Position numbers and translations under genes: made by a program | The notes under the pieces: generated by a model | What the model saw: only the letters and a program-made list of their open reading frames with translations | Database searches by the model: none | Told to the model about the DNA's origin: nothing | Shown: positions 28,697-64,000 of the stretch, piece after piece | How the letters are laid out: the number at the start of each line of letters is the position of its first letter | Position numbering within the stretch: position 1 is the stretch's first letter | Assembly (NCBI GenBank): GCA_030272155.1 | Contig: CP126200.1 | Span: forward strand, 372,001 to 436,000 | DNA: 64,000 bases | Origin: Tetradesmus obliquus | Lineage: Eukaryota; Chlorophyta; Chlorophyceae; Sphaeropleales; Scenedesmaceae | Direction: 5' to 3'

Positions 28697-30549
28697 ATGG
28701 CAAAGCAGCAGGCCCAACAGCAGCACTACAGGACGGTGAGTATGTTGGAAGGTGAGAGCGAAAGACGAAAAGTAGGCTTGTTTGTGCTGGCCAGTGTGGC
28801 TGCTGGGCAAGGCAGCAGCTAGGATGGTTTGCTGTGCAGGTGTGGAGGCCTAGATATCCAAGGGCTGGAGCGCCAGCAGCTGATGAATCGCAGCATCCAG
28901 TCGAAGGACAGGGTCAGCAGCAAGGTGAGCATAGCATTGCGTGCTTCCTTTGTGGCCAGCAGCGTGTCGTGCTACAAGTGTGCTCTCAGTGGCTGTAGAT
29001 GTCTGTGGAGGTATGCTGCTGGCCATTCCTTGCATCAACAGGTGCTAAGGTTACTCCCCAGCATGTACTAAAGCAGACAGTCACCCAATTGCTGCGCAGC
29101 ACAACAGCGCAGCTGTGTTGTTGTGTGAGCATATGTGTAGTGGTGCCGTCTGTGGAGGCATGTTGCTGGCCATTCCTTACATCATCAGGTGTCAAGGGGC
29201 AATCCTCAGCACGTACTGAAGCAGACAGTGACTCAACAACTGGCCAAAACAGCAGTGCAGCAGGGCTTTTGTGTGGGCATGTGAGTGGTGTTGCCGTCTG
29301 TGGAGGTATGCTGCTGGCCATTCCTTACATCATCATGTGCCAAGGTTACTCCCCAGCAGGCACTGAAGCAGACAGTCACCCAATTGCTTCGCAGCACAGC
29401 AGCGCAGCTGTGCTGTTGTGTGAGCATGTGTGTGGTGTTGCCGTCTGTGGAGGTATGCTGCTGGCCATTCCTTACATCACCAGGTGTCAAGGGGCAAACC
29501 TCAGCACGTACTAAGCAGGCGGTCACTGCACGGTTGCGCGCAACAGCACAGCAAGACAATAGTGCAGCAGGTTGTTTTGAGCATATGAGTGGTGGTGCTG
29601 TCTGTGGAGGTATGCTGCTGGCCATTCCTTACATCATCATGTGCCAAGGTTACTCCCCAGCAGGTACTGAAGCAGACAGTCACCCAATTGCTTCGCAGCA
29701 CAGCAGCGCAGCTGTGTTGTTGTGTGAGCAAGTGTGTGGTGTTGCCGTCTGTGGAGGTATGCTGCTGGCCATTCCTTACATCACCAGGTGTCAAGGGGCA
29801 AACCTCAGCACGTACTAAGCAGGCGGTCACTGCACGGTTGCGCGCAACAGCACAGCAAGACAACAGTGCAGCAGGTTGTTTTGAGCATATGAGTGGTGGT
29901 GCTGTCTGTGGAGGTATGCTGCTGGCCATTCCTTGCATCATCAGGTGCTGAGGTTATCCCCCAGCAGGTACTGAAGCAGACAGTGGCTCAACAGCTGCAC
30001 GGAACAGCTGAGTTGCTTCGTGAGCATTCAAGCATGGCAGGAGTAGACATGAACTATGTCGAGAGATCTTGTTGGTAGCCTGTTGTACACTGTTAACAGC
30101 GAACGTCACACCATGCGCGCAATGCTTGCAACGATTACATTGTGATGTCCCTGCTGCTCTCCTGCTGCTGCAGCGATGTCACCAAGCATCCGTGCCAGTG
30201 CGCGGCTCAATGGTGGCATGGCAGCCGCCAGGCGGCAGCTCTCCAGCATTAACCATAAGTGAGGGGCCCTCAGGCATATGCGGCTCTGAGATATGCCACA
30301 GTGCTTGGGACTGCAGGAGCATGCAGGGCATTTGCAATGTCAGCCAGTCACTGGCTCAGGCAAACACTGCAGCCGCTTGTTGCTTTGCGGTGCACTGAGT
30401 GCGTCAGGTGTCTGCCAGGTGGCATTGTGCATTCTTGCAAGTGTCAGCCTTCAGATTAACCGCGAGCTGCGTCCATTCATTCCTTGCTGTGACTGATTTC
30501 TGCCTTCTGCTGCAGTGTCACCACAAGCAACAACAAGCGGCTGCAGTGA
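28697..30549 (+). CDS. Weak model of a small four-exon gene
   Basis: Four short stretches with good splice signals join in consistent phase: 28697-28735, 28840-28924, 30174-30258 and 30516-30549, giving 80 aa (MAKQQAQQQHYRT, then VWRPRYPRAGAP, then SIRASARLNGGMAAARRQ and a stop after NNKRLQ). No family is recognised, and upstream exons are possible. The second intron would contain the whole 147/157-bp minisatellite. The support is only phase consistency and splice sites, so this could be spurious. Confidence 0.25.
29002..30051. repeat. 147/157-bp minisatellite, seven units
   Basis: The block TCTGTGGAGG(T/C)ATG starts at 29002, 29149, 29297, 29444, 29601, 29748 and 29905. The intervals are 147, 148, 147, 157, 147 and 157. 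The last four units form a higher-order pair: 29444-29747 is nearly repeated at 29748-30051 (304 bp). Since 147 is a multiple of three, long open frames run through the repeats on both strands (for example 28999-29514 and 29285-29818 plus, 29501-29941 minus). Those are best read as repeat artefacts. Confidence 0.93.
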
Positions 30550-45037: not shown

Positions 45038-46821
45038 CAGCTCTCCCTTCCAAATGTGCAGTTGCAGCTTGTGGGCGGCCACCAGGCCGGCAATGTGCAG
45101 ACTGCTGTCGCTGCTGCGCTGCTGCTGCGGCAGCGGGGCTGGGTGAGCATCAGTGCTGAGGCGATTGCTGCGGGCCTGCAGCAGGCATGGCTGCCTGGCA
45201 GGTTCCAGGTGAGCAGTGAGCAGCCACACCAACCTTGCGCTTTGAGCGACGCTGTCTCTATTATGTTAGTTGCATGTGCATGCTCACATGCGTAAATGCT
45301 TGCGCGCACTCCCACAGGCGCATGCGCGTGCCCATGCACCTGCTCACGTAAGCTCACATGTATACACGCATGTACAAGCAGAGCACGCACACACATGTGC
45401 ATGCACACACGCCCATGCGCGCATGCACGAATGCTTGCACAGGCGCGCACGCGCGCGCACGCGCACGTGCAGGCGCACACACAGAATGCACACGCACGCG
45501 CGCGCATGTAAAACACACAGGAAACGCGCACGCACGGACACAATGGGTACACGCGCATATCTGGCAAGGGTGCCAGCACACACGCATGTCAAACATGTAG
45601 GTAGGAACGCGCGCATGTCAAACATGTTGGTAAGCACGCACGCATGTCAAAAATGTGGTTGCGCGCGCGCGCATGACAAACATGTAAGATTGCACGTACG
45701 CGCGCCTGTCAAACATGTCAGCACACGCGCGCGCGTGCATGTCGAACATGTAAGATTGCATGTATGCGCGCCTGCCGAACATGTGAGCACACGCAAGGGC
45801 ATGTCAACCATGTAAGATTGCACGTATGCTCGCCTGCCAAAATGTGAGCACACCTGCACGCGCGCATGTCAAACATGTATGATTGCACGTATGCACACAT
45901 GGCAAACACGTATGCACGCCCGCACGCGCGCATGGCATGCAATTAAGCCCACACGCGCGCAGGTCAAACATGTGAGCCAACACATGCGCGTGCGCGCATG
46001 TCAAAACTTGTAAGCACGCACACACGCGTGCACGCCAAACATGTATGCACACATGTGCTACACACGCATGCGCACAGCTGCGTACACGCGCAGACGCGCA
46101 CACATACATGTATGCAGCACACACCCTCACACACATGCACACACAAACACGCATGCATGAATGCATGCATGCATGCTGCATGCACACATGCGCTCACATT
46201 CGCATGCAGAGCACACCCACGCATGTTAACATCCGTCCACTGCTGCTGTGCATGCCCCATGTGTGCCACAGGTCGCGGAGATGCCAGGCAGTGCGGCCTG
46301 TCACGTCGTCTTTGACGCCGCACACACAGCAGACTCGGCTGCTGCGCTGGCATCCACGCTGCGAGCTGCCCTCCCTGACCAGCCTGTAGCGCTGGTGCTG
46401 GCCATGGCAGGAGATAAGGAGCACAGGTGCGTGATAAGATGTCGGTGCAGCTGTGCTTGGTGGGAGCTGCATGTCATGCTGTGTTGCCCTAATGTCATGC
46501 AATGCGGGTGTGGTCATGGTGTGGTCATTGCTGCAAGGCTTGAGCATCAATTGATTGCAATGGCTGCAGCAGTTAAGTGTCGACGGGGACGTCCCCCGCA
46601 CCCACAGACGGTGTTGGGCTGTTGTTCCGGTGCGTTCTGCAACATCTCACGAATCACGCATTGCTTGTTTCATCCTCTGCAACACGCTGACACTGAGCGT
46701 CTGTGCTCTGCAGGGAGGTGTGTGGGGCGCTGCAGGCCTGCAAGCCATCTGTGGTGGTGTTCACTACTGTGCCAATTGCTGGCAGCCACCATAGGGCAGC
46801 TCCGCCAGGTGAGCTGCTTGC

Positions 46822-47422: not shown

Positions 47423-47617
47423 TCACGTGCACCATATCACTAGTTGCTGCTGAGATCATGCCATGTGGCATTTTACGAGTGCAGCGCGGCAGGCCGATTT
47501 CGACGGCTTTGAGAGGATGTAGATTGTCTGTTTGTGAGACCGTGGTCGGACCAGCCAGCATTGCTATGGTTGATGCACTGCCGGTTCCTGGTGGTGAGGT
47601 GCACACAACGTTTGGTT

Positions 47618-49413
47618 TTCACTAGGCACTGGTACGAAAGTAGCGCAAAGGCAGCATACTCATTAAATGCAACTTTCAACAACGAATCTAAATCAAATTG
47701 AGCCACTATATGGGGTGCTGTGTAACTTGAGTAAAGTGCTTGCAAACCACCTGCTGCGCCCCGACTCTTTGAATTTTCGCGGGTCTGTTATCTGCTGCTT
47801 TCTGCTGCTATAGGGCGCTGCTGCCTGCACATATGTATTTATGTAACCGTTTCTACTTCTGGGCAGCACCTGCTGGCTGATCGGGCTCTGCAGCTGTGGT
47901 GTGCCAAGTGCCCTGCCGCTGTTGTTGCGGTCTGCTGTCTGGCCCTGTACGTTGTGCGCTGCGCTGCTGCTGCTAATCTTGTTGCTTATCACCGATCAAC
48001 GTTTCAGCATTACAGGCAGCTGCTGCGCGTGTGCAGCTAGGGTGGTTGAGCACAGTTGGTTGAGTGCTGCCAGTCCACACACTCTCCTGCAGACATTCAT
48101 CTTGTGTGATCACGCTGAATTCTGGAGCTGAAAAAAACTAGCAGTTTGGAGCGGGCGCTGCAAGCAGGTGAGGTGCCTGCAGGACAGCTGACATGCAAGC
48201 AAACCAAGGCAGCAGGTTCAGCAGCTGTGCCTTGCTGTACCTACCACAAGCAGCAGGTTGCTGTGCCAGCATGGCTTTCTGTTTGTGTGCTATGTGGCTT
48301 TGTCTCATATCTGGGATGCTAGGTTCGTACCCTACCCCACTGAAGGCAAAAATGCACATCTTCCTTTGCTGCAGCAGTTCTCAGCCTGCATTGCAATCCT
48401 GCTGCTGCTGTTTCTGGGCAAAGTTGATGAAATGCCTGCCCACCTTTTTATGTTATAGCAGGCCTGCTGCAACTGCTGCTGGTGGTGCAGCTGTCCCAAA
48501 TCCTGCATTACTGTTGTTTGCAATTGCTGGGACCTGCCTGGCCAGCAGCACATTCAGCAGCAGACAGCAGAGTGCAGCTCAGAGGAGGGTGCTGTCACCT
48601 GCTGTAGCCTCTGTTTTTCGAATGCACACTTTGCCAGGCAAGACAGCAGCAGCAGCAGCCTGGTGGTCATGCAGTGCTGCTGCTAAATTCACAAAAGCAC
48701 ATTCAGAGCACAGCCTTGTCTTGAAAGACGTTTTAAAAGCAATCCGAATTGTCTGCTGTTGCTGCCGCAGCACGATCGAGCTGGCATAGCCTGCACAGGT
48801 GTCTTGGACTCACTGGCTCCGTGACCAGGCTGGCTGCCCGGCGTCCCACCGGAGAAAATTCTCGGCCCAGTAAGATGTAAGAATCAGCTGTTATGTATGA
48901 GGATAAGTTTGCAGCGTGACAGCTGTCTGCATCGAGAGTGGCTGATTCGGCAGCACTTCCCCGTCACGGATTACCTGACTCAAACACAGCTTTCTCCTGC
49001 CGTGCGTCAGCTCAATTAAATACTTGAATAGATGTTATTACAATGCCAAGAGTGCAGCAACATCAAAGCATCCTGCTTGGTAGGGCAACCGTTGAGACAA
49101 GTAACGTGTGGTTCAGTAGCTGGAGCTGCATGAAGCACATGTTAGCACGTACAATAATTAATTTTAGCCGTAACAAGTACAATCATTCACGCACATTGGC
49201 TCAACTCGCCTGCATGTGAACTGCCCATCAACAGCACTGCTGCCCTGGCAGAACTGCCTTGCCACGCGCGCGCGCTTTTCACTCTGGGCCAGTCTATGCA
49301 CCAATACACCATCTGACAATTATTATCAGATAACAATCTATCAACTTATCATGCCTGTGGCTGTCCATGCTGGCATACAGTTGAAAACAGAGACATAACC
49401 ACCCAGCTACAGC
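47618..49413. other. Gene-poor 1.8 kb of the array unit
   Basis: This part recurs in each unit. A 198-codon plus-strand frame (48193-48789) is open in all copies, but the copies are nearly identical, so that is no evidence of coding, and its Cys/Ala/Leu-rich composition follows from TGC/CTG repeats. GAGAAAATTCTC at about 48852 and GACAGCTGTC at about 48918 are small palindromes. Transcription start sites for the nuclease gene are expected here. Confidence 0.4.
49311..49331. promoter_or_regulatory. 21-bp near-palindrome in the unit
   Basis: ATCTGACAATTATTATCAGAT pairs at 18 of 21 positions with its own reverse complement. It sits about 80 bases before the nuclease start codon and past the transposase 3' end, and repeats in every unit (53618, 57925, 62232). 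It may be a protein-binding site or hairpin. Confidence 0.5.
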
Positions 49414-50921
49414 ATGGCACCAGCACATTGCCGGCGCCGTGCGGTGCGCACACACAGGAGCCCAACCAGCAGAGGAGCTGTCAGAAAGGTGAGCTTGCAG
49501 GGAGTGTCAATCAACGACCTGCTGACAGCTGCTAGCTGTCTAGAGTGCAGCCAGCAGCCATATACATTCTAAGCCCTGCAGCAGCAGCAGCAGCAGCGTG
49601 CTCAGCGCTGATCATCCCTAGGCCAGTTGCCAGCCGTACCCGTGCGCTGCTTGTTGTCACGGCATACAAACACCCTGTCCAGCCTGCTGCGCACCACATC
49701 CCACAAATCTGGCAGCCTCAGTGCATCGGCCATGACAGAGGCAGGTGTGATGTTCATGAATATGTCACGCAGCGTCCGCTGCAGATCACGCGGTGATACA
49801 TCTGCACCAGTCAGCTGGTAGGTGTTGTACAGATGGTTGCGGAAGCTAGCCTTGAGGCTGCCGAATGCATGCTCAATGGGCTGGTTGAAGTCTGGGGAGT
49901 AGGGTGCAATTTGCAGCACCTGCTCTGGGCTGATGCCAACTGCAGCTAGGAGCTCTGCGGCATCCTGCCCGACATGAACACTGGGGTTGTCGAAGATGTA
50001 CAGCGGCGTAGTGCCGCGCGCGCGCTGCTGTTGGTTAGCCTTCTCTGCAAGCTCCTTCATGCAGTGGACAAACTCCAGCTGTGTCATGCTCTTGGCCTTC
50101 ACGTTCTTCTTCTTCTTCTGCCTCTTCAACTGCAGGTGCAGGTTTTGCCGGGTTGGCAGCGGAAAGCCTTGTTAGCAGCAGCGCAGCTGAATGTGCAAGT
50201 GGATGAAAAGGGACGCCCATTCATCAGGCTTGAGGCAGATGGTAAAAGCAGGCCCAGGATCATCAGCTTGGGGATACGCAAGCGGCCACTGTACTGGGCC
50301 ATGACGGGCTGCCTGCCAGGTGTGCAGCACTTCAAGTTCTGCGAGCCGCGCGCTGCCGCAACTGAAGCAGCTCTGGAGTGCAAGCAGTGTGCATGTTTGA
50401 TGCCTAAAGTGGGTGGCACAGGCGCACGCAACATGCCTGCAAGTGAGGAGCAGCTGATGCGCAAGCTGTACAGGTTGGGAATATGTGACAGCATGTGCGC
50501 GCAAGTGGCAGTAGGGTGGTGGCGAGGCCGGGTCGATTTCTTGCATGCGCAGCGCAGCGTGCTGATTCAAGCAGATGGGACATGCCATGACACTGGTATG
50601 TATGACAACAGCACAGAGAAGCTGTTGCAGCGCGACGTTGCCTTCTGTGCTGCTGCGTATGCCAAGTTCCTGCCAGCAGGCGGCAGTGTGCTGCGGGTGC
50701 GCACATGTGAAAGTGACTGGCAGGATTCCCTGGAGACTGGTTTCCAGCTTGCTGCTGGGGGTGGTGTCATTGTGCTGTCACCAAGCTACTCTGCTGTTAT
50801 GGTCAGCGCAGGCCGCGGTGTGCAGCGCGCCTTCCCTGAGGCACTGCGAGATGCACTGCCACGTTGTGTGTACACAGAACGCAACAGCTGGCATGTCTTT
50901 CAATGGCGCGCATCTAAGTAA
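49414..50921 (+). CDS. Nuclease-like protein of the array, unit 1 (VSR/DUF559-type signature)
   Basis: Exon 1 is 49414-49488 (25 basic residues, MAPAHCRRRAVRTHRSPTSR and on) and exon 2 is 50136-50921, joined in phase 0 to give 286 aa. Exon 2 is read from GTGCAG after the acceptor CTGCAG. Key segment: E-E-Q at 129-131, RVDFLHAQRSVLIQADGTCH (Asp159, Gln170, Asp172, His176), then KLLQRDVAF and SVLRVRTCESDW. The order E, D, hydrophobic strand, (E/Q)-x-D-G-x-x-H, Q-R-D and V-L-R-V is the layout of VSR/DUF559 PD-(D/E)XK nucleases. RAP-type domains are a looser alternative. Cys107, 110 and 112 could bind metal. Exon 1 is less certain than exon 2. Exon 2 lies wholly inside the transposase intron on the other strand. 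Confidence 0.65.
49524..49540. terminator. Perfect 7-bp hairpin beyond the transposase stop
   Basis: GACAGCT, three loop bases, AGCTGTC. It lies 60-80 bases past the transposase stop codon (minus strand) and inside the nuclease-gene intron. Repeated in each unit. Confidence 0.4.
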
Positions 50922-51817
50922 TAGCAGCACACACTCACATAGTATGGTGTGCTGGGGTTGCCAACGTGGTCAATGTTGTCTGTTGTGCCGGTGGTGAACT
51001 TGCAGTAGACAGCGCCGTGCACCGCGTTGACGGCGCACACAAAGTGTAGCTTGACTGGTTTGTTGTCCTGGCCCTTGCGCATCCACTTGCATGGTAGCAC
51101 AGCATGTACGTTTGCATCATGTGCATCGCAATACACCTTGATGGCGCCGCCTGCTAGGTTGGACATCCAGAGTTTGCACTCATCAACAAAATAAATTCTG
51201 CTCAGCAAGTCTGGCTCATCCTGGAACATCTTGTAGAGCCTCTCTGCTGCAGCCTTTCTCCTGTCTTTCTGCTTGTCTGTCAGGTCCATCTTCACATCTA
51301 TTCTTCTGCGCACCAGGTTGGGGTCAACAGCTTTCATGCGCTTCAGCAGTTGCTTGGGCCTGATGTTGTACTTCCTGCATAGGCCACCCAGGTACTCATT
51401 TTCCTGACAAGCAAGTTTGATTGATGTCCACCATACATGCACGTCGACTTTCTTCTTTGCTTCTGCACTTGGGTAGGCCTTGACTACCTTGCCAGCTTTG
51501 AATGTTTCACTGGCCTTTAATGCCACGTCATGTGGGACTTTTGGGGGTCTGCCCTTGTGCTTGGGAGTTGCCACCGTGCCATACTGCTTGAAGTTCTTGT
51601 AGTGGGTCATGCAGAAGGAATTCAGGTCCTGTTTGATTTGAGCAGCATGCTTAGGAAAGTGTACTCTGTAATAGCCTGCCGCACCCTTTGGACTGCCGGC
51701 GATGGCTAGCATCGTGAGCACCGCCACCACCGCCGCCACCCGCGCGCCCGTTGACTTGCGGTTGCTCTCCCATCCCAAAGGGTGCTTGCGCACCATGGAC
51801 AGCCACCCTGCAGCCAT
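49602..51817 (-). CDS. Tc1/mariner-IS630-type DDE transposase, unit 1
   Basis: Exon 1 is 50939-51817 (donor TAT/GTGAGT) and exon 2 is 49602-50129 (acceptor CTGCAG), joined in phase 0 to give 468 aa. An N-terminal DNA-binding part includes KHKGRPPKVP and YNIRPKQLLKRMK. The catalytic core has IYFVDECKLWMSN (Asp212), YIFDNPSVH (Asp340) and APYSPDFNQPIEHAFGSLK (Glu379). That is the D-D-E layout of IS630/Tc1/mariner with 38 residues between the second Asp and the Glu. The first Asp is in exon 1 and the other two residues in exon 2, so only the spliced product has the whole triad. Without splicing the frame ends soon after YVSVCCYYLDARH. The coding sequence lacks the poly-Gln runs of the host genes. 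Confidence 0.85.
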
Positions 51818-53720
51818 GGATTCAAAACATATGCAGGAGTCAGCTGTGCTTCTGCTAGCAGTGCAAACAGAAATAACATGTCAGGTCAACCTAATGTTTG
51901 CAGCAACCTGGAGTTTGACCAGCCTTCACTAGGCACTGGTACGAAAGTAGCGCAAAGGCAGCATACTCATTAAATGCAACTTTCAACAACGAATCTAAAT
52001 CAAATTGAGCCACTATATGGGGTGCTGTGTAACTTGAGTAAAGTGCTTGCAAACCACCTGCTGCGCCCCGACTCTTTGAATTTTCGCGGGTCTGTTATCT
52101 GCTGCTTTCTGCTGCTATAGGGCGCTGCTGCCTGCACATATGTATTTATGTAACCGTTTCTACTTCTGGGCAGCACCTGCTGGCTGATCGGGCTCTGCAG
52201 CTGTGGTGTGCCAAGTGCCCTGCCGCTGTTGTTGCGGTCTGCTGTCTGGCCCTGTACGTTGTGCGCTGCGCTGCTGCTGCTAATCTTGTTGCTTATCACC
52301 GATCAACGTTTCAGCATTACAGGCAGCTGCTGCGCGTGTGCAGCTAGGGTGGTTGAGCACAGTTGGTTGAGTGCTGCCAGTCCACACACTCTCCTGCAGA
52401 CATTCATCTTGTGTGATCACGCTGAATTCTGGAGCTGAAAAAAACTAGCAGTTTGGAGCGGGCGCTGCAAGCAGGTGAGGTGCCTGCAGGACAGCTGACA
52501 TGCAAGCAAACCAAGGCAGCAGGTTCAGCAGCTGTGCCTTGCTGTACCTACCACAAGCAGCAGGTTGCTGTGCCAGCATGGCTTTCTGTTTGTGTGCTAT
52601 GTGGCTTTGTCTCATATCTGGGATGCTAGGTTCGTACCCTACCCCACTGAAGGCAAAAATGCACATCTTCCTTTGCTGCAGCAGTTCTCAGCCTGCATTG
52701 CAATCCTGCTGCTGCTGTTTCTGGGCAAAGTTGATGAAATGCCTGCCCACCTTTTTATGTTATAGCAGGCCTGCTGCAACTGCTGCTGGTGGTGCAGCTG
52801 TCCCAAATCCTGCATTACTGTTGTTTGCAATTGCTGGGACCTGCCTGGCCAGCAGCACATTCAGCAGCAGACAGCAGAGTGCAGCTCAGAGGAGGGTGCT
52901 GTCACCTGCTGTAGCCTCTGTTTTTCGAATGCACACTTTGCCAGGCAAGACAGCAGCAGCAGCAGCCTGGTGGTCATGCAGTGCTGCTGCTAAATTCACA
53001 AAAGCACATTCAGAGCACAGCCTTGTCTTGAAAGACGTTTTAAAAGCAATCCGAATTGTCTGCTGTTGCTGCCGCAGCACGATCGAGCTGGCATAGCCTG
53101 CACAGGTGTCTTGGACTCACTGGCTCCGTGACCAGGCTGGCTGCCCGGCGTCCCACCGGAGAAAATTCTCGGCCCAGTAAGATGTAAGAATCAGCTGTTA
53201 TGTATGAGGATAAGTTTGCAGCGTGACAGCTGTCTGCATCGAGAGTGGCTGATTCGGCAGCACTTCCCCGTCACGGATTACCTGACTCAAACACAGCTTT
53301 CTCCTGCCGTGCGTCAGCTCAATTAAATACTTGAATAGATGTTATTACAATGCCAAGAGTGCAGCAACATCAAAGCATCCTGCTTGGTAGGGCAACCGTT
53401 GAGACAAGTAACGTGTGGTTCAGTAGCTGGAGCTGCATGAAGCACATGTTAGCACGTACAATAATTAATTTTAGCCGTAACAAGTACAATCATTCACGCA
53501 CATTGGCTCAACTCGCCTGCATGTGAACTGCCCATCAACAGCACTGCTGCCCTGGCAGAACTGCCTTGCCACGCGCGCGCGCTTTTCACTCTGGGCCAGT
53601 CTATGCACCAATACACCATCTGACAATTATTATCAGATAACAATCTATCAACTTATCATGCCTGTGGCTGTCCATGCTGGCATACAGTTGAAAACAGAGA
53701 CATAACCACCCAGCTACAGC

Positions 53721-63842: not shown

Positions 63843-64000
63843 TAGCAGCACACACTCACATAGTATGGTGTGTTGGGGTTGCCAACGTGGTCAATGTTGT
63901 CTGTTGTGCCGGTGGTGAACTTGCAGTAGACAGCGCCGTGCACCGCGTTGACGGCGCACACAAAGTGTAGCTTGACTGGTTTGTTGTCCTGGCCCTTGCG
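62523..64000 (-). CDS. DDE transposase of the array, unit 4 (5' part outside window)
   Basis: Exon 2 is complete at 62523-63050. Exon 1 begins beyond base 64000 and only its last 141 bases (63860-64000) are seen, including the Asn variant shared with unit 3. Confidence 0.85.

Follow-up and report, generated by a model that had tools for sequence, protein, structure and literature searches.

The window analyzed here is a stretch of 64,000 nucleotides from Tetradesmus obliquus (C10:372001-436000 of a 104.66-Mb genome in 17 contigs). At its positions 49414-51817 it carries two genes on opposite strands, one for a transposase (T) and one for a nuclease-like protein (N), which appear to be interlocked through their introns. 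Along the DNA the order is N exon 1 (plus strand), T exon 2 (minus), N exon 2 (plus) and T exon 1 (minus). An earlier note on this DNA had described the same order, with an exon of one gene inside the intron of the other and reading frames that close after splicing, and our analysis confirmed both features. N exon 1 (49414-49488, 25 codons) is followed by a predicted phase 0 intron of 647 nt (49489-50135, GTGAGC..CTGCAG), which contains T exon 2, and by N exon 2 (50136-50921, 261 codons plus stop), the relatives of which are weakly DUF559/Vsr-like. On the minus strand, T exon 1 (50939-51817, 293 codons) holds the first catalytic D at residue 212, a predicted phase 0 intron of 809 nt (50130-50938, GTGAGT..CTGCAG) contains N exon 2, and T exon 2 (49602-50129, with the stop codon) supplies the second D (340) and the E (379) in DD38E spacing, within a match to Pfam DDE_3. 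Removal of the introns closes both frames, giving proteins of 286 aa for N and 468 aa for T.

The palindrome CTGCAG at 50130-50135, read on both strands, is the putative 3' splice site of N as well as of T. Because both acceptors use this one hexamer, just 6 bases separate N exon 2 from T exon 2; the gap between the N stop codon and T exon 1 is 17 bp. Each pre-mRNA would splice away the exon of the opposite gene, and the interlocking would at the least save space. Provided that both introns exist, complementarity between the pre-mRNAs would extend over about 2.4 kb, and mutual antisense control of N and T, or the small-RNA control suggested in the earlier note, is possible. Processed transcripts had been expected to be free of exon overlap, and this holds for the coding exons, which are separate. 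However, the mature mRNAs may overlap in their UTRs, since the nearest TGTAA, the algal poly(A) motif, lies within or beyond an exon of the other gene, namely at 51667 within T exon 1 for the plus strand after the N stop, and at 49042 beyond N exon 1 for the minus strand past the T stop.

The earlier note had reported the gene pair at 49414-51817 without the repeats and the array around it. This stretch makes up just the interior of a larger element and one unit of a tandem array. The element begins with a 723-bp end module, S (47620-48342, plus strand), a long terminal direct repeat with imperfect terminal inverted repeats (TIRs) of its own, starting with CACTAGGCACTGGTACGAA and finishing with TTCGTACCCTACCCCACTG. 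It is followed by the internal part, G (48343-51926; 3,584 bp), which carries both genes and ends in AAGGC...GCCTT, and by a second S (51927-52649, plus strand) that is shared with the next unit. The ends of S are CA..TG. A diverged subfamily, D, was found in the same genome with 67-75% DNA identity to the window type in aligned pieces; its array on C1 and its single element L061 have a perfect CAGCTGGGCATGGTACAAA end pair, while its C4 array departs from it by two mismatches at the right end. T starts 109 bp from S, and S therefore probably supplies the T promoter. Between the subfamilies, identity in S reaches 78-79% per 100 bp and falls to 50% in one block, and the non-coding left part of G, at 47-65%, lies below parts of S; the sharply conserved S blocks could be promoter or binding sites. 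A 720-bp length difference was considered as a deletion, a reading that was dropped because S has its own ends and target duplications. A DNA search with S gave matches in the C10 and C13 stretches only, among the best 40 of 291 candidates.

The array in the window, (S-G)n-S, starts at 47620 on the plus strand, has a period of 4307 and leaves the window at 64000, reaching C10:459105. The window thus holds part of a nine-unit array, (S-G)9-S, with nine N copies (among the best 146 of 274 candidates) and ten S left ends. The array as a whole is flanked by a TTT target duplication, with the left copy at 47617-47619 and the right copy after the S at C10:459105 (L003). A stretch on C13 contains 51 detected N copies (again among the best 146 of 274 candidates) over more than 200 kb, with inverted blocks. 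At window-type loci the array units are 98-100% alike. Apart from arrays, single S-G-S elements and solo S copies are present. Duplications were read for the single elements L053 (5,037 bp, GTA) and L061 (5,004 bp, TTG), for the solo S copies L054 (GGT), L056 (AGA) and L059 (TGC), and for the arrays on C10 (TTT), C1 (ACA) and C4 (AGC). All eight insertions with both ends readable therefore have a 3-bp target duplication, none of them TA. This count leaves out L041 (C12, read at its left end), L055 (right end not found), L052 (rearranged), L057 and L058 (left flank consisting of G), the TTC inside the C13 stretch (L046/L047), for which an inversion has to be assumed, and the long C13 array, the window-type C14 and C4 arrays and the D-type C14 array, whose outer ends lie beyond the sequence covered.

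Several joints depart from the regular layout. Where S is lacking, the joint of the window subfamily is GCCTT-CTG-AAGGC, and that of subfamily D is GGTCT-CTG-AGAC. Inside the C13 array, an S-G-S has been turned round precisely at the place of an S (L045), and in another block (L046 and L047) S ends meet a G that is interrupted at the same 3 bp, TTC. This second arrangement resembles the insertion of an array piece combined with an inversion. At L060 (C4:222880-223740), two S copies abut (CCCCACTG|CACTAGG) with neither G nor spacer between them, resembling the product of joined ends. On C1, a D-type N exon (C1:10840825) follows a window-type S left end (C1:10837257) at a distance of about 3.6 kb, possibly a chimeric or neighboring insertion of both subfamilies. 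The window also contains other tandem repeats, at 29001-29984 and 45575-45983, with units of 147-304 bp and 29-66 bp.

On the evidence of its sequence, T is an IS630/Tc1-related DDE transposase, which agrees with the earlier description of the gene as a transposase. The window T scored 28.9 bits against Pfam DDE_3 (cut-off 28.6), and the D-type T scored 24.4 bits, below that cut-off; the D-type T also matched the IS630 model NF033545 with 24.9 bits (E 1.3e-5), below the equivalog cut-off of 100. The catalytic residues are D212, D340 and E379, with 38 residues between the last two, and 11 T-related proteins were retrieved in a database search. The element had also been called Tc1/mariner-type. 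For the catalytic domain this is apt, given the DDE_3 and IS630 matches, the DNPS..APYSPDFNxPIEH motif and the DD38E spacing shared with the IS630-Tc1-mariner group. However, the non-TA duplications of 3 bp, the CA..TG ends on S modules and the second, opposite-strand gene are unlike that group, and a standard Tc1/mariner element is out, because a TA duplication was seen in none of the eight insertions. The 3-base remnant at the G-G joints recalls mariner footprints. Among other groups, Zator elements make 3-bp duplications, and a duplication of this length would fit EnSpm/CACTA as well. The latter was rejected, since CACTA-like ends occur in one subfamily only and the transposase differs: subfamily D ends in CAGCTGG rather than CACTA, and DDE_3 is the sole Pfam match of T at E<=1.

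The identity of N is less clear-cut, and its description as nuclease-like is plausible but weak. A database search gave 21 N-related proteins, seven of which were named very-short-patch-repair endonuclease at their source, and a search with the N alignment added six further pieces, all partial (27 hits). DUF559 was matched at E<=0.1 by six of 30 N members (best E 0.0018), but the best score, 18.6 bits for P0019, compares with a curated cut-off of 20.6, the others range from 11.8 to 16.6, with 14.1 bits for the copies of this genome, and none of the N scores obtained against DUF559/Vsr profiles lies above the curated cut-off. The conserved stretch GRVDF...LIQADGSCHD is similar to DUF559/Vsr cores. 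Pfam gave no hit for the window or the D-type N, NCBIfam returned nothing for five N relatives, and neither PHROGs (nothing useful), Rfam (nothing) nor sequence searches of solved structures (nothing usable) added to this; the Pfam families that the N alignments matched at E<=0.1 included no His-Me family. Of the structure models of N, the full-length one was poor (pLDDT 49.4) and the AlphaFold model of the core middling (pLDDT 67.7), and Foldseek gave no match at E<=0.001 for either of them. A weakly DUF559/Vsr-like, nuclease-like protein is thus plausible from the sequence, if faintly marked.

N might instead be a conserved accessory protein that is not a nuclease, for instance a DNA-binding partner of the transposase, with the arrays arising through ordinary unequal crossover between S copies. 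We lean against this reading, yet regard it as a realistic one. It accords with the empty Pfam result for both N types and with a middling core model that has no confident structural match, and unequal crossover could run on the long direct S repeats alone. The DUF559 matches, the endonuclease names of a third of the database relatives and the likeness of the conserved stretch to DUF559/Vsr cores speak against it.

Relatives beyond this genome were also sought. Scans of viral contigs with N and T and of genome contigs with T found no relatives. For five of the 21 N matches the longest underlying contigs measured 4,322-4,470 bp, and for one of the 11 T matches (P0023) 4,421 bp; such lengths correspond to about one unit plus overlap, and they give hints, though only hints, of arrays elsewhere.

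Taken together, we consider it likely that 49414-51817 forms the interior of an autonomous S-G-S DNA transposon of composite-like build, with an interlocked transposase and nuclease-like gene. In such an element the transposase would cut at any pair of S ends; if T recognizes S ends, then S, S-G-S and whole arrays would all be substrates. An internal S could be lost from an array with its last three bases (CTG) staying behind, which would leave a G-G joint. Recombination between S copies would lengthen or shorten arrays and leave solo S, and cuts made by N might perhaps stimulate this recombination, in the manner proposed for the nuclease of KolobokP elements.

The arrays could also have been built without recombination, through circles made by the transposase or through targeted insertion beside an existing S. 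The exact abutment of two S copies at L060 and the inversion of an S-G-S exactly at an S position at L045 are in its favor, as transposase-mediated joining could yield both. Nevertheless, the three whole arrays each have one intact outer duplication, which fits growth within one insertion. Circle insertion into an existing S stays compatible with single outer duplications, and on balance we find this route possible but doubtful.

Whether both frames are real genes was addressed by comparing the window type with subfamily D, to which the proteins are 59% (N) and 69% (T) identical and from which dS is about 0.6. The start codons and donors of both genes, the 75-nt N exon 1 and the shared acceptor palindrome are all present in subfamily D as well. 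Over seven copies from three lineages, the exon 1 length of 75, the ATG, the GTGAGC donor and the palindrome are kept in all seven, and the T donor is kept in six; in the seventh (C4b) the sequence piece ends before it. The two introns proposed in the earlier note are thus supported by conservation between subfamilies rather than by transcripts. By the Nei-Gojobori method, N exons 1 and 2 had dN/dS values of 0.655 and 0.505 between the window type and D, and T exons 1 and 2 had values of 0.343 and 0.374. When the same base changes were placed at random 1000 times and pN/pS was compared with the observed value, none of the 1000 shuffles was as low for N exon 2, T exon 1 or T exon 2; N exon 1 alone, with its 25 codons, shows no significant purifying selection (284 of 1000 shuffles reach the observed pN/pS). 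Judged from these substitution patterns, every exon but N exon 1 is under purifying selection, and chance open frames are ruled out by the shuffles, with three of the four exons at 0/1000. Selection on the plus-strand frame in diverged relatives, on which the earlier note had made its proposal depend, was accordingly found for N exon 2. In genome searches, 145 of 146 scored N matches (best 146 of 274 candidates) and all 134 scored T exon 1 matches (best 134 of 469 candidates) were free of stops, counts that consist mostly of near-identical array copies; intactness within one array says little, because its units are so alike. A third lineage, L052 (C6:5537500-5543000), is 83% identical over G and has an inverted S at its left end, with an intact N (289 aa by model) and a T that lacks its 5' part.

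It could be argued that T alone is spliced and that N exon 1 is spurious, N having another start or being a decaying remnant. N exon 1 is short and shows no significant conservation when taken alone, the proposed N intron of the window type contains an in-frame ATG (49974), and N of one S-G-S copy carries a frameshift. Against this, N exon 2 is under purifying selection, and exon length, start codon and donor are kept in all seven copies. Furthermore, the metagenome protein P0018 includes N exon 1 and continues into the intron as V-S, with 11, 10 and 15 of 25 residues identical to N exon 1 of the three genome lineages, and thus adds support for this exon. In the D-type copies read, the open stretch upstream of N exon 2 has no ATG, so that unspliced N is not a conserved alternative. 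For T, V-S or V-G directly follows the exon end in 11 of 11 relatives, down to 32-35% identity, which matches what an unspliced GT donor would encode. A spurious N exon 1 or a decayed N therefore seems improbable to us. A plain satellite that descends from a dead transposon and is maintained by array homogenization would suit the likeness of units at window-type loci but is very improbable, and in its simple form was rejected, since both frames are kept between the subfamilies at a dS of about 0.6 and since arrays, single S-G-S and solo S each have 3-bp duplications, at different sites.

Returning to the composite-like transposon, its closest counterpart in our comparison is KolobokP. In these elements an internal part (INT) lies between long terminal direct repeats (LTDRs) with their own short TIRs, and solo repeats, monomers, (LTDR-INT)n-LTDR multimers with target duplications and INT-INT joints with a loss of 3-4 bp are reported from seven animal phyla (Kojima and Bao, 2022; PMC9587614). 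KolobokP elements encode a DDE transposase and, downstream of it on the complementary strand, a His-Me finger nuclease; the authors propose unequal crossover induced by the nuclease, consider circle insertion into an existing repeat as well, and set KolobokP apart from every other DNA transposon by its LTDRs (PMC9587614). The LTDR-INT-LTDR layout recurs here, along with solo repeats and multimers; the direct repeats again bear TIRs of their own, some joints lack the repeat, and a nuclease-like gene on the opposite strand accompanies the DDE transposase. In contrast, the transposase there is a Kolobok transposase and here IS630/Tc1-like, the nuclease is of the His-Me type there and the protein here, so far as one can judge, weakly DUF559/Vsr-like, and the genes follow one another there and are interdigitated by introns here. 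Moreover, the INT-INT joints there lose 3-4 bp while the G-G joints here keep three S bases, and the hosts are animals there and a green alga here, with the 51 N copies detected on C13. The Kolobok motif [C/D]xxH between the second D and the E, as given in that source, is absent in the window T and the D-type T, and the S ends are CA..TG instead of the 5'-RR..YY-3' ends of Kolobok. Membership in KolobokP is therefore ruled out, since transposase and ends differ. Bacterial composite transposons (IS-cargo-IS, as outlined in PMC9587614) are alike in that two self-contained, self-mobile end modules flank a cargo, but the transposase here sits in the cargo and not in an end module. Among the open-access matches listed, no further paper used the term KolobokP.

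We read the element in the window as a probable case of convergence on KolobokP, namely a composite transposon with an IS630/Tc1-type transposase and a new, interlocked arrangement of its genes. Eukaryotic host genes may also be nested or interleaved on opposite strands, with exons of one inside the introns of the other; unlike those, the two genes here make up the coding content of a mobile element, and a single palindrome would provide both acceptors. A comparable interlocked element was absent from the open-access literature matches listed, which makes this absence a weak one. More speculatively, a lineage of the IS630/Tc1 type may have gained end modules and an opposite-strand nuclease and thereby become a second, independent nuclease-armed composite transposon, in which the nuclease would cut S or joined S ends and so generate arrays, and the two-way 3' splice site would balance jumping (T) against amplification in place (N). 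We offer this fuller scenario tentatively and regard it as unlikely in its entirety.

That the KolobokP set of traits recurs together with another transposase points to a functional link between nuclease and direct repeats. The interdigitated pair, with one palindromic acceptor that would serve both strands, is a compact system for the expression of convergent, mutually antisense and mutually intronic genes. Finally, as seen on C13, S-G-S shows a DNA transposon filling stretches of more than 200 kb.
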